A DNA stretch of 64,000 bases from Allocoprobacillus halotolerans (GTDB taxonomy: Bacteria; Bacillota_I; Bacilli_A; Erysipelotrichales; Coprobacillaceae), in the NCBI RefSeq assembly GCF_024399475.1, contig NZ_CP101620.1, positions 1,407,608-1,471,607 on the forward strand. The letters are read 5' to 3'. Positions within the stretch are counted from its first letter, which is position 1; every line of letters begins with the position of its first letter. A model generated the notes under the pieces. It did not search any database, was not told the DNA's origin, and saw nothing but the letters and a program-made list of their open reading frames with translations. Shown here piece after piece: positions 26,411 to 33,490 of this stretch. A program made the position numbers and the translations under genes.

Positions 26411-26444
26411 ATAATTAAAGAATATACATATAAGGAGAATGGTT

Positions 26445-27278
26445 ATGAAAATTATTACAGATACAGGAGCTTTATTATCACCTAAAGAGGGAGAAAAATT
26501 AGGTGTAGGTGTTCTTCCATTAAATGTTATTGTGGATAAAAAAAGTTATAAAGAATTTGTAGAAATTGATAGTCAAGAGTTTTTGGATATGGTTAAAGAG
26601 GGTCATATTCCTAGTTCATCACAACCATCTATTGGGGAAACAATTGAAATGTTTGAACAATATCCTGATGAAGAACTTTTAGTTATAAATATGGCTGATG
26701 GTTTATCAGGAACATATCAAAGTACTATGAGTGCAAAAGAAAGTGTTGATCATAGTGACAATATTCATGTGATCAATTCAATGACTTTATGTGGACCACA
26801 AAAATATTTAGTAGAAAAAGCATTGGCTTTAAAAGAAAAAGGGTTGGATATTCATCATATTATGAAAGAATTGCATAAAAGTATTGCTTGTGAAAAATCA
26901 TTTTTGATTCCACAGGATTTTGGATTCTTAAAACGTGGAGGACGTTTGACACCATTAGCGGCTACACTTGGGGGTATGTTAAAAATTACACCAATTATGA
27001 CAACAACCAAAGATGCCAAAAGATTAGAAAAATATGCTATGAAAAAGACATTAAAAAGTGCAGTGAAAGAAATTATTAAGGCTTTTCAGGAACTAGGGGT
27101 TAATGAAGAATTCAAAATTTATGTGACACATGCAGGAGTATTAAAACAGGCACAAGATGTTGTCAAACAATTACAGGCTACTTTTGAAAATACAATTATT
27201 GAAATGTATGATCTTTCTCCTGTTTTTATTGCCCAAGGTGGACCTGGCTGCATTGCAATTCAAACAATTAGAAAATAG
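26445..27278 (+). CDS. DegV-family fatty acid-binding protein
   Basis: 277 residues. Family marks: IITDTGALL at the N-terminus (DegV domain 1, normally TDSxxDL), SSQPSIGE near residue 58, the serine-containing loop MADGLSGTYQS near 85, and the GGRLTP motif in LKRGGRLTPLAATLGG near 165. DegV proteins (FakB) bind fatty acids for phosphorylation by FakA. ATG 26445 is preferred over 26439 because AAGGAG ends 7 bases before it. Single-gene unit ending in a terminator. Confidence 0.92.
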   Translation: MKIITDTGALLSPKEGEKLGVGVLPLNVIVDKKSYKEFVEIDSQEFLDMVKEGHIPSSSQPSIGETIEMFEQYPDEELLVINMADGLSGTYQSTMSAKESVDHSDNIHVINSMTLCGPQKYLVEKALALKEKGLDIHHIMKELHKSIACEKSFLIPQDFGFLKRGGRLTPLAATLGGMLKITPIMTTTKDAKRLEKYAMKKTLKSAVKEIIKAFQELGVNEEFKIYVTHAGVLKQAQDVVKQLQATFENTIIEMYDLSPVFIAQGGPGCIAIQTIRK

Positions 27279-27350: not shown

Positions 27351-30007
27351 GTGAATTGTCAAGATATATTAGAATTTAAGGGGAGCTGGAGAAATTATCA
27401 ACAAAAAGTATTGGATCAGTTAGATATTATGAGTCATGATCGAAAGGTTCATATTGTATCAGCGCCAGGCTCAGGAAAAACAACTTTAGGGATTGAAATT
27501 ATCAGACGTTTAAATCAACCAGTATTGATACTTGTTCCAACAATTACTATTCGTCAACAGTGGGTAGCAAGAATCAATGAAGCTTTTTAAAAACGGGATA
27601 TAAAAGTGAGGATTATATTTCACAAGATTTAAAACATCTTTGTTTAATTAATGTAGCGACTTATCAATCGATTCATAGTGCAATGAAAAAAGTAAATGCC
27701 CAAGAAGATGAGGAAAATATGGATTATCATGATTTTTCTTTAATTGATGCTATGAAAAAGGCGGGGATTAAAACATTATGTTTAGATGAATGTCATCATT
27801 TAAGAACAGAATGGTGGAAAGCATTGGAAGATTTAAAAAAGCAGTTAGATTCGCTCTTTACAATTTCATTAACCGCAACACCACCATATGATTCATCCAT
27901 TGCTATGTGGATGAGATATTTAGATATGTGTGGTGAAATTGATATAGAGATTACCGTTCCAGAACTGGTCAAAGAAGGAAGTTTATGTCCCCATCAAGAT
28001 TATGTTTATTTTAACTATCCAACATCTAAAGAAGAAAAACAGATGAAAGCTTTTCAAGAAGATGTACAAAATGTTATAAGCTATATAATGCAACATCAAA
28101 AGTTTCAACAGGCTATTTTATCCCATCCCTATGCAACATCTACCTTAGATTTAGATAAGGCTTTAGAGAATCCAGCCTATTTATCTTCGATACTTATTTA
28201 TTTAGAAAGCCAACATTTATCTTATCCTAAAGAGTATTTAAAAATACTAGGAGTTAAGAAATTGGAGAAAATGTCAGAAAAATGGATGACCATTTTACTG
28301 CAAGGTTTTTTCTTTGATGATAAAGAGGCCTATAGAATAAGTGAAAGTGATTATCATGAACTCTATCAATATGTAAAATCACATGGAATGATTGATCAAA
28401 AGAAAGTTGTAATGCAGGTAGATATTGCTTTTGAAAAGATGCTTATCTCTTCACTTGGCAAATGTGAAAGTATTCAGGATATTGTTCATCATGAATATCA
28501 GTGTATGCAAAAGGATTTAAAATTATTAATTTTAACAGACTACATTAAAGGTGAGTATGAAAAGGCTATTGGTGATGAAACGATGAGTGTTCATGCATTA
28601 GGAGTCTTGCCATTCTTTGAAATGTTAAGAAGACATAGTGTTCAACAGACACAATCATTACACTTGGCTGTTTTATGTGGCTCAATGGTTATTATTCCTG
28701 CTTCTTTGAAAACACAATTAGAACATCTCGTACCTCAAGATACAAATCTCACATTTCAATCATTTCCATTGATTAATGACTATGTGAAAGTATCTATGAA
28801 AGGCAATCACCATGAAATCATTGAAGCTGTCAGTACTTTGTTTGAACAAGAGGATATTCAGGTGTTGATTGGAACAAAGTCTTTACTTGGGGAAGGTTGG
28901 GATTGTCCCTGTGTGAATACTTTAATTCTAGCAAGTTTTGTTGGTTCTTTTATGTTAAGCAATCAAATGCGAGGGAGGGCTATTCGTACATATCATCAAA
29001 ATCCAAATAAAGTTAGTCATATTTGGCATCTTGTTTGTGTTCCTCCTGATAAAGGAATTATTAATCGTAACCAAGAGATTCAACAAACAGAAAGTGATTT
29101 TGAAAATTTGAAAAGAAGGATGGAACATTTTTTAGGACTTCATTATGAACAAGATTTTATTGAAAATGGAATTGAAAGATTAACAGCCATTCAATATCCC
29201 CTTAATCGTATACATATTAAACAAACCAATCAACGTATGTTACAACTCTCTTCAAAAAGAAATCAATTAAAAGAAAGATGGGATCGTTCATTAGCTATTT
29301 ATGATAAGATTGAAGTTGTTGATGAACTGGAAACAGAAGATAAAAATATGACAGCTGTTTTATTATATGATGCTTTAAGACAAATGATTTTAACTTTTTT
29401 AAGTTTGATTTTTGCTTTCGTTTTTGTGTTGATTATCAGTGCTATTTTTCATATCCAAAGTCGTTATATGATTTATGTGATGTTTTGTTATGGCTTTGTA
29501 GCGATCATGAGTCTTTTATGGAAACTTAAAAAGGTGCTTACATGGAGAAATCCTTTAAGTCGTTTACAGGCTTTTGGTGATGGTATTTATCAAGCTATGT
29601 TACGTATGCATTTATTTGAGCTATTAAATTGTCGTGTACAAACAGAATCGCAGGCAGTGTTCTATTCAATATATTTAAGTGGTGGTACAGCTCATGATAA
29701 AGCATTGTTTGCAAAATGTGTAAGTGATTTTTTTGATGAAATAGATAATCAACGTTATATTCTGTATCATAAGCATAAAAGAAATAAAATGGATAGATAT
29801 TTTGTTGTTCCTGATATTTTTTCTAAACGTAAAGAGGATGCAATGATTTTTGCTCAGTGCATGCAACCTTATATTGGTAGATATCAATTGATTTATACAA
29901 GAAATGAAGCAGGAAGAAAGATTTTATTACAAGGTAGAAAAGATGCTTTGGCGAATAGACAAAATCGAGTCATGACAAGAAAGAAAGTTAAGGGAGCTTT
30001 GGAATAG
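27351..30007 (+). pseudogene. Membrane-anchored SF2 (DEAD/DEAH-type) helicase, one frameshift
   Basis: About 885 codons once a frame break near 27588 is bridged: NEAF must continue as LKTGYKSEDYISQ, so a T run is one base short. Helicase motifs are all present: SAPGSGKTT (I, residues 37-45), LDECHH (II), SLTATPP (III), KSLLGEGWDCP (V) and QMRGRAIRT (VI). Unusually, two strong membrane helices follow (around 29380-29530: ILTFLSLIFAFVFVLIISAIF and a second one), and then ~150 residues of unknown fold. GTG 27351 is the likely start; an ATG 12 bases upstream is possible. No partner gene identifies its role; DNA repair or phage defence are guesses. Confidence 0.78.
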
Positions 30008-30069
30008 ATGAAAAGTTTTTGATGAAATGATAAATAAAACATTGCTTAATGAAAGAGAGGATGATAAAT

Positions 30070-30396
30070 ATGCATATTATATTAGGATCGTATTATTCTT
30101 TATTTTCTATGATTGGATGGTGGGGTGTTTTTAAAAAAGCTGGGTATTCAGGCTGGTATGCACTCATTCCTTTTGTGAATTTGTATTTTATTTGTAAAGT
30201 TATTACAGGAAATGGATTAAACTTTTTATGGTTTTTGCTTCCAATTATTAATGTTTTTTATGCCTTTTATTTGATATTTCGTTTGTCCTATGTTTTTGGA
30301 CATGGATTTATGTTTGGTTTAGGTTTGTTGTTCATTTATGGTTTGTTTATTGTGATATTAGGGTTTGGAAGTTCTAGGTATCGTGGATATAGATAA
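30070..30396 (+). CDS. Small membrane protein, DUF5684-like
   Basis: 108 residues with four hydrophobic stretches and the recognisable WWGVFKKAGYSGWYALIPFVN, a motif shared by DUF5684 and by membrane tails attached to some signal peptidases. ATG 30070 has GAGAGG 9 bases upstream; an in-frame ATG at 30049 would translate it. Function unknown. Confidence 0.7.
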   Translation: MHIILGSYYSLFSMIGWWGVFKKAGYSGWYALIPFVNLYFICKVITGNGLNFLWFLLPIINVFYAFYLIFRLSYVFGHGFMFGLGLLFIYGLFIVILGFGSSRYRGYR

Positions 30397-31988: not shown

Positions 31989-32282
31989 TTATTGAAGTAT
32001 TTGATAAACATCATTTTCACTATGTATATCAAAAATACGTAATACAATGTTGTTCAATTCTTCTTCATTGCTTTCTTCGATTTTCAATGTCAATTCAGGT
32101 GTGAGTTTTCCTAGTGCATTTTTAAGTAGTGAAATGACTATTTGTAATAAGGTTTCCATCTTTCCTATTTGTTTTCCTTCTTCTCTATTTCGCTCCATTT
32201 TACAGGCTATGATATTTTTCTCTCGCTCTATGTCATAGCTTTTCAATAAGCCATCTTCATTTATCATATATTGTTGATGCAT
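31989..32282 (-). CDS. Candidate free-standing Rpn tail protein (RpnS-like, 97 aa)
   Basis: Begins MHQQYMINEDGLLKSYDIE. AAAGGAGG lies 8 bases upstream. Composition: a charged helical stretch (MERNREEGKQIGKMETLL) followed by the LLKNALGKLTPELTLKIEES tail. In E. coli rpn genes, small proteins from internal starts have been reported to inhibit the full nuclease; by analogy this copy could be an antitoxin without its toxin part. That is inference; only the ribosome site, start and open frame are seen. Confidence 0.5.
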   Translation of the reverse strand: MHQQYMINEDGLLKSYDIEREKNIIACKMERNREEGKQIGKMETLLQIVISLLKNALGKLTPELTLKIEESNEEELNNIVLRIFDIHSENDVYQILQ

Positions 32283-32510
32283 ATTCATGACCTCCTTTAC
32301 TAAATCACTTTCTTCACTGTTTCCATGTGGTTGATCATATGTAAATAAATATAATAATTGTTCCATTTCAGGCAAAGGATTTTCCATATCAAATTCCTCC
32401 TTCAATAGTTGTAATTGTAATAAAACTGTTTTCACTTTCTCCCCTCTGTATCTGATTCTTTTGTCAATATTACCTTTTTGTACCACAAGATAATAGCGAG
32501 GAAGATTGAA
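31989..32510 (-). pseudogene. 5'-truncated second copy of the Rpn gene
   Basis: Reads in frame from about PIFNLPRYYLVVQKG (matching PIQNLSHYYHVIQKG of the full gene) to the same C-terminus (NDVYQILQ). The nuclease core is absent. From its first in-frame start it could give up to 165 residues, but the only well-placed ribosome site is internal: AAAGGAGG (32291-32298 on the complement) 8 bases before ATG 32282, giving 97 residues (see next feature). The differences from the full copy are substitutions without stops, so the frame has been kept open since duplication. Confidence 0.75.
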
Positions 32511-32546
32511 AATAGGACAGTTTATTTTTCAATGAATAAACGGGAA

Positions 32547-32577
32547 AAGAATTTCGCTAAATCTTAACGAAATTCTT
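32547..32577 (-). terminator. Terminator of the full second Rpn gene
   Basis: AAGAATTTCG/CGAAATTCTT; on the minus strand the T-run is TTTTCCCG. Duplicate of 31951-31981. Confidence 0.65.
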
Positions 32578-32584
32578 ATGTGCA

Positions 32585-32878
32585 TTATTGAAGTATTTGA
32601 TAAACATCATTTTCACTATGTATATCAAAAATACGTAATACAATGTTGTTCAATTCTTCTTCATTGCTTTCTTCGATTTTCAATGTCAATTCAGGTGTGA
32701 GTTTTCCTAGTGCATTTTTAAGTAGTGAAATGACTGTTTGTAATAAGGTTTCCATCTTTCCTATTTGTTTTCCTTCTTCTCTATTTCGCTCCATTTTACA
32801 GGCTATGATATTTCTCTCTCGCTCTATGTCATAACTTTTCAATAAGCCATCTTCATTTATCATATATTGTTGATGCAT
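32585..32878 (-). other. Internal in-frame start with strong Shine-Dalgarno inside the Rpn gene (97 aa product)
   Basis: AAAGGAGG (complement of 32887-32894) stands 8 bases before an in-frame ATG at 32878 (MHQQYMINEDG); another ATG at 32884 is 2 bases from it. This is a stronger ribosome site than most genes in the window have, in the middle of a coding region, and would give the tail protein alone. Confidence 0.55.
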
Positions 32879-33490
32879 ATTCATGACCTCCTTTACTAAA
32901 TCACTTTCTTCACTGTTTGGATGTGGTTGATCATATGTAAATAAATATCCTAATTGTTCCATTTCTGGCAATGGCTTTTCCATATCAAATGCCTCCTTCA
33001 ATAGTTGTAATTGTAATAAAACTGTTTTCACTTTCTCTCCGCTGTATCTGATTCTTTTGTCAATATCACCTTTTTGTATCACATGATAATAATGAGATAG
33101 ATTTTGAATCGGCTTTCCAGTATATATAATAAGCTGATAGACATTCTTTAAATGTATGTACTCTACACCAACTTTTTCATGATAATCAATAAGACGTTCA
33201 CTGTATCTTAAAAAACGAATCTGATCTTCCAATTGAATATCATAGTTATTCATTTCAAAATCATATAAACGTCCATGATCATCTTCCACTACGACATCAA
33301 GAATCAATTTTTTATTGAGATAAGAACCTTTGAATGTTTCACTGTTTTTCACATAAGTGTTCTGGATAGAATCATCTCCTGAAATATACTGACATAAAAA
33401 GCGTCTCATCTCATGGCTGTAAGTGAGAAGATAATGAAAGAAATAATCATACTTGAACTGACTAACAATCTCACGAATTTGTTCGTACAT
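32585..33490 (-). CDS. Rpn-family PD-(D/E)XK nuclease (second locus)
   Basis: 301 residues, AGGAGG 11 bases before the ATG. The nuclease core LILDVVVEDDHGRLYDFEMNNYD (around residues 62-84) gives the D...ExN pattern of PD-(D/E)XK enzymes; relatives are annotated as Rpn family or PD-(D/E)XK transposase. The first ~200 residues differ strongly from the protein at 3905, yet the C-terminal tail (LGKLTPELTLKIE.SNEE) is shared, suggesting tail exchange. An internal ribosome site and start are present at 32878. A truncated copy lies directly downstream. Likely DNA nuclease; defence or toxin role inferred. Confidence 0.85.
   Translation of the reverse strand: MYEQIREIVSQFKYDYFFHYLLTYSHEMRRFLCQYISGDDSIQNTYVKNSETFKGSYLNKKLILDVVVEDDHGRLYDFEMNNYDIQLEDQIRFLRYSERLIDYHEKVGVEYIHLKNVYQLIIYTGKPIQNLSHYYHVIQKGDIDKRIRYSGEKVKTVLLQLQLLKEAFDMEKPLPEMEQLGYLFTYDQPHPNSEESDLVKEVMNMHQQYMINEDGLLKSYDIERERNIIACKMERNREEGKQIGKMETLLQTVISLLKNALGKLTPELTLKIEESNEEELNNIVLRIFDIHSENDVYQILQ

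Follow-up and report, generated by a model that had tools for sequence, protein, structure and literature searches.

An XPB/ResIII-type helicase bearing a probable membrane hairpin and a C-terminal domain of no recognised family in Allocoprobacillus halotolerans and its relatives

The window analysed here is a stretch of 64,000 nucleotides from Allocoprobacillus halotolerans (assembly GCF_024399475.1, contig NZ_CP101620.1, positions 1,407,608 to 1,471,607), and all features are on its forward strand unless stated otherwise. A helicase gene lies at 27351–30007, downstream of a DegV-family gene (26439–27278) and upstream of a gene for a small DUF5684 membrane protein (30049–30396). The original prediction had described the helicase as one reading frame, which proved wrong: the GTG at 27351, aligned with the start codon position of relatives, opens a frame that is closed by a stop at 27588–27590, while the remainder is open in another frame (27584–30004). 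The switch sits in a homopolymer run (27584–27593), at which the intact copies of the same genus are open in one frame, and it divides the motifs between two pieces. Piece A (27351–27587) holds the GTG start, motif I (Walker A, GSGKT) and the ITIRQQW region, and piece B (27584–30004, 807 codons without a stop) runs from the switch through the DECH box to the C terminus.

Three genomes of the same genus (L003, L004, and L005) carry a single uninterrupted frame across the switch site, with proteins of 885–886 aa and open frames of 889, 891, and 934 codons (the gene in L004 is cut by the contig end, which the 934-codon frame reaches), and a fourth holds the second half of the gene only, on a short contig. 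Nineteen other places in the window matched genes of the Massilimicrobiota loci L018–L020 at > 60% identity, all in a single frame, the helicase alone being matched in two. The dN/dS of the window copy, which covers piece B, was 0.11–0.15 against relatives, compared with 0.12–0.16 among intact relatives (at dS ~1, i.e., with synonymous sites near saturation), and piece B thus shows no sign of relaxed selection. Taken together, the single-frame relatives, the 19 unsplit matches, and the dN/dS of piece B indicate that the frame break is recent or artefactual (a sequencing error). Apart from this overlooked switch the observation behind the original prediction was sound, and a scan of genome contigs that returned 323 relatives bears out that the protein is not a chance open reading frame.

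Both pieces scored above the gathering score of ResIII (Pfam PF04851; 46.6 bits for piece A against a cutoff of 22.5), which also matched 51/51 relatives. As predicted, the sequence contains the SF2 motifs (I, II, III, V, and VI, in order), with their key residues invariant or almost so in these 51 relatives. Motif II (DECHH, 27785–27799; D, E, H, and H invariant) is followed by motif III (TAT, 27872–27880), motif V (GTKSLLGEGWD, 28871–28903), and motif VI (QMRGRAIR, 28964–28987), and between the two RecA-like domains the predicted model places a mostly helical insert (27932–28516, residues 196–390 of the L018 protein). Five solved sequences were found by the family profile at 0.001, all of them RAD25/XPBII. 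A full-length model built from the 51 sequences (mean pLDDT 83) found its best alignment in complexes that contain TFIIH, with a chain that we take to be the XPB subunit (Z 19.3 over 376 residues, rmsd 3.7), and also with the archaeal XPB 6p4f_C (Z 17.8 over 365 residues).

The likeness to XPB/RAD25 thus lies in the core fold and the order of the motifs, and several features set the family apart. It falls far under the NCBIfam cutoff for XPB (equivalog NF045503: 30.9 bits for piece A versus 610, and no XPB match for piece B up to 0.1), its start aligns at residue 303–305 of the TFIIH chains, so that their N-terminal part is missing, and it adds a hydrophobic hairpin and a C-terminal domain of its own. 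XPB carries a RED motif after motif III; at the place expected from that layout, eight relatives in an alignment that leaves out L007 (runs of N) and L010 (partial) read TATPPYD. ResIII-type helicases share the core as well, but no restriction or modification partner recurs among the matches listed for 142 neighbours. From N to C terminus, members of the family consist of an SF2 helicase of the XPB/ResIII type, a hydrophobic hairpin, a ~130-residue domain, and a tail of basic character.

RIG-I and DEAD-box RNA helicases also align with the model (Z 15.6–16.4), and for this reason the XPB-like fold is no proof of a DNA substrate. These nearly equal alignments, together with the basic character of the C-terminal domain and tail, would suit an RNA helicase that is associated with the membrane and takes part in translation or RNA turnover, a reading that we consider improbable, as the solved sequence relatives found at 0.001 are all RAD25/XPBII.

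The adjacent pair of strongly hydrophobic helices that had been predicted after the core was confirmed at 29357–29548 (L018 residues 671–700 and 706–734) and probably forms a membrane hairpin. Using the Kyte-Doolittle scale and requiring both 17-residue windows to reach ≥ 1.5, a hydrophobic pair was found at this site in 44/51 relatives, compared with 0/51 for a control in the helicase part, and window hydropathy rose to 2.5–3.3 in many rows. The hairpin showed a mean pairwise identity of 16% among the 51 relatives, lower than the C-terminal domain (42%) and the RecA-like domains (57%); hydrophobicity retained while the sequence drifts fits a selected membrane anchor. Lysine and arginine are in excess in the flanks (119 before the helices, 60 between them, and 145 after), and a putative two-helix topology with both ends in the cytoplasm would be consistent with these counts. 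The claim of membrane tethering therefore gains support from helices that are kept in position and hydrophobicity rather than in sequence, and tethering appears likely.

Not every member of the family has the two helices. In a second set, which shares some of its rows with the first, 22 of 25 rows besides Tritonibacter L102 passed the threshold (L121, L122, and L125 failed), and the helicase of L102 keeps the C-terminal motifs and has no helices, so homologues without them, which the original prediction named as an argument against itself, do exist to this extent. The helix-less protein of L102 and the seven of 51 relatives below the hydropathy threshold could also mean that the helices form a buried structural hairpin instead of an anchor, but hydrophobicity maintained without sequence identity, and at values as high as those above, makes this rather unlikely. 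To our knowledge, membrane-fixed helicases have rarely been described in bacteria. Judged by title and the opening of the abstract, none of the papers on membrane helicases found outside subscription journals dealt with a bacterial protein of this kind.

The ~150 residues of unassigned fold predicted after the helices were confirmed as a region without a Pfam match above cutoff, and they comprise a basic alpha-beta domain of no recognised family (29552–29950) and a basic tail ending in KKVKGALE that was modelled with low confidence (29951–30004). The core is acidic, with a median net charge of −15, against +7 in the domain and +4 in the tail. Seven residues of the domain (R70, Y71, P89, F102, Y117, T118, and R119) do not vary among the 51 relatives; the letters YTR are absent from L112 and L113. 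One acidic residue, E97, stands among the nearly invariant columns, which would favour binding over a metal-dependent nuclease activity. In Massilimicrobiota the domain had the lowest dN/dS of the three parts measured (0.05–0.12), i.e., purifying selection acts on it within the genus; over the whole set of 51 its conservation is below that of the RecA-like domains. Modelled alone, it gave a confident fold (mean pLDDT 88), as the original prediction had proposed to obtain, with no convincing match: sequence searches gave none, including none to a Pfam model, Foldseek on PDB and viral models returned nothing at 0.001, and the best alignment from VIA-align (Z 5.0 over 62 residues) was unconvincing. 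The domain is thus unrecognised by these searches, and a listed or unlisted family may still fit it. The tail often ends in KVKxALE (26/51 relatives end in ALE) and could be a terminal binding motif.

The best 80 of the 323 relatives belong mostly to Lachnospiraceae, then to Streptococcus, Massilimicrobiota, Carnobacterium, and others, and the 51 sequences used throughout were selected from 80 full-length proteins (thinned at 78% identity to 54, minus L098, L101, and L102). The gene is infrequent, being present in 13/392 genomes of a phylum draw and in 34/147 genomes of Streptococcus (the genus of L084), where one copy is split in two pieces (G495) and another is only a C-terminal remnant (G508). 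A further draw gave 2/348 positive genomes, one being the centre of the draw, and a set of 60 genomes gave 15 matches, four of them (G020, G027, G041, and G048) to the helicase core only. The profile of the C-terminal domain was found in 10/295 genomes and always inside the helicase gene, apart from a fragment at a contig end in G003; G022, G373, and G395, positive in the phylum draw, are absent from these 10 and may not belong to the 295. A gene tree obtained with a quick method showed seven changes of family label, the minimum possible being six (10/80 rows unlabelled).

The position of the gene in the chromosome is retained within several clades, and its neighbours differ between clades. 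Clustering of 823 neighbours from 84 loci (all 12 neighbours present in 45/84, L100 left out) gave no family common to most clades. One Lachnospiraceae-like clade has SpoIVA upstream of the helicase at five loci, a carB-like gene (recognised by eye from its sequence) lies downstream in eight Lachnospiraceae loci, and in streptococci a nucleoside phosphorylase and potassium-transport genes are found near the helicase. Among 142 neighbours searched with Pfam, SpoIVA, DegV, nucleoside phosphorylase, and response regulators reached five each (best 25 of 169 families), and the matches listed were mainly housekeeping families (raw counts, no control set). A housekeeping context, which would speak against the original prediction, was accordingly found for most identified neighbours, but it was not a consistent one, as it differs by clade.

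The statement that there is no recognisable partner nearby held insofar as no general partner emerged, but TrkH/KtrB-type (Trk/Ktr) potassium transport genes recur within ≤ 6 genes of the helicase in 19/84 loci (L030, L034, L036, L038, L046, L058, L065, L066, L071, and ten Streptococcus), and at least three different arrangements occur. In four loci of Agathobacter and six of Streptococcus, TrkH occupies the second upstream position and lies on the opposite strand; where BLAST reported matches between these two groups, identity was 22–24%. As this association was picked out after viewing many families, it is a lead and not a claim. DegV-family genes occur within ≤ 2 genes of the helicase at six loci (L018, L019, L020, L023, L037, and L047), which represent at least two lineages, and in variable orientation. 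DUF5684 was considered as a general partner and rejected, as outside the window it adjoins the helicase in L018 (downstream) and L020 (upstream) and in none of the other loci searched.

Other gene arrangements were noted in passing. In Tritonibacter L102 (456–4977) the helix-less helicase is adjoined by two DUF4178 genes and by DUF350 and spermine-synthase genes, and a 145-aa ORF shares 4 bases with the start of the helicase; an ORF with this same overlap is annotated in Rhodovulum L099. The DUF4178/DUF350/spermine-synthase genes, noted in this one species, resemble an operon reported in PMC11237479, the main text of which does not contain the word “helicase.” In the window itself, two adjacent ORFs of the Rpn/PDDEXK_2-DUF4351 kind lie on the reverse strand (31989–33490) with very similar C-terminal halves, and the shorter of them (31989–32486) lacks the N-terminal half.

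The original prediction had proposed a surveillance role in DNA uptake or phage entry and a search for defence-island enrichment. At 1e−10, the PADLOC scan of the 142 neighbours (raw counts, no control set; best 25 of 53 models) gave two matches for the top model and one each for the 24 others, so no model exceeded 2/142. No link to phage defence emerged, and the surveillance role is possible but unsupported. Among the single matches, those to HamA and to a type II restriction enzyme were strong. In the core, the PADLOC model of PbeA (PDLC02704) showed similarity in 41/51 relatives. Pbe is a defence system in which PbeA has partner genes clustered beside it. The resemblance to PbeA concerns the helicase core, but the match to L018 spans residues 15–245 only, outside the C-terminal domain, and no partner cluster recurs at the loci examined.

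A viral scan with two core peptide patterns gave 16 loci, with every match within residues 2–260. Relatives are also held by two “Bacteriophage sp.” records from human faeces (MT838455.1 and MT836806.1; L100 and L101). The former equals Eubacterium ramulus L045 in protein length, hydropathy segments, and score, and on the basis of this identity it was taken for bacterial DNA. Phage origin was rejected, given core-only matches at the 16 loci and this bacterial-looking record.

A lone anti-phage or anti-plasmid gene, i.e., a membrane-stationed motor that would engage incoming DNA, is another reading. The patchy presence of the gene in the phylum and Streptococcus draws and its broken or remnant copies (in the window, L040, L070, G495, and G508) would suit it, as would the core similarity to PbeA helicase models and the HamA and restriction-enzyme neighbours. 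Nevertheless, the low PADLOC counts, the chromosomal place kept within several clades, and PADLOC and viral-scan matches confined to the core leave it doubtful. A motor for DNA uptake in competence, analogous to ComFA, would agree with the probable membrane position, the SF2 core, and the occurrence in streptococci; however, no competence family appeared among the neighbours (best 25 of 169 Pfam families), the gene is present in many Lachnospiraceae, and only 34 of the 147 Streptococcus genomes had a match, which makes such a role very unlikely. The matches listed for the window pieces included no ComFA model.

The explanation that we prefer, tentatively and at a little under an even chance, is a membrane-tethered, XPB-like dsDNA translocase in an accessory chromosomal role, most likely working alone. 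The two-helix hairpin would hold an XPB-like SF2 ATPase at the cytoplasmic side of the membrane, and both the core and the C-terminal domain would face the cytoplasm. Double-stranded DNA would most likely be the track along which the core translocates; the C-terminal domain and the tail, both basic, would most likely grip nucleic acid or a partner at the membrane side, and the motor would thereby be confined to DNA near the membrane. Such a gene would be an accessory of the chromosome that stands alone and serves the handling of DNA at the membrane, not a member of a multi-gene defence island. This explanation draws on the ResIII matches in 51/51 relatives, the RAD25/XPBII profile matches, the structural alignments at Z 17.8–19.3, the hydrophobic pair and its low identity, the lysine/arginine counts and net charges, the low C-terminal dN/dS, the C-terminal profile matches in the helicase gene, and the tree with seven changes versus six.

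Against it stand the seven of 51 relatives and three of 25 rows below the hydropathy threshold, the helix-less L102, and the lower conservation of the C-terminal domain; patchy distribution (13/392 and 2/348) also suits a defence gene, and the lone-gene reading leaves the recurring Trk/Ktr neighbours unexplained. At an admittedly low probability, the gene may constitute a hitherto undescribed type of single-gene system, in which a membrane-stationed dsDNA translocase with an unrecognised nucleic-acid-binding C-terminal domain would act on DNA that enters or touches the membrane. Relatives occur in many Lachnospiraceae and streptococci, purifying selection was measured in Massilimicrobiota, and the searched libraries assign no function to the gene. 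As its C-terminal domain matches no Pfam model and no solved structure in a convincing way, a single structure or deletion phenotype would open a family.
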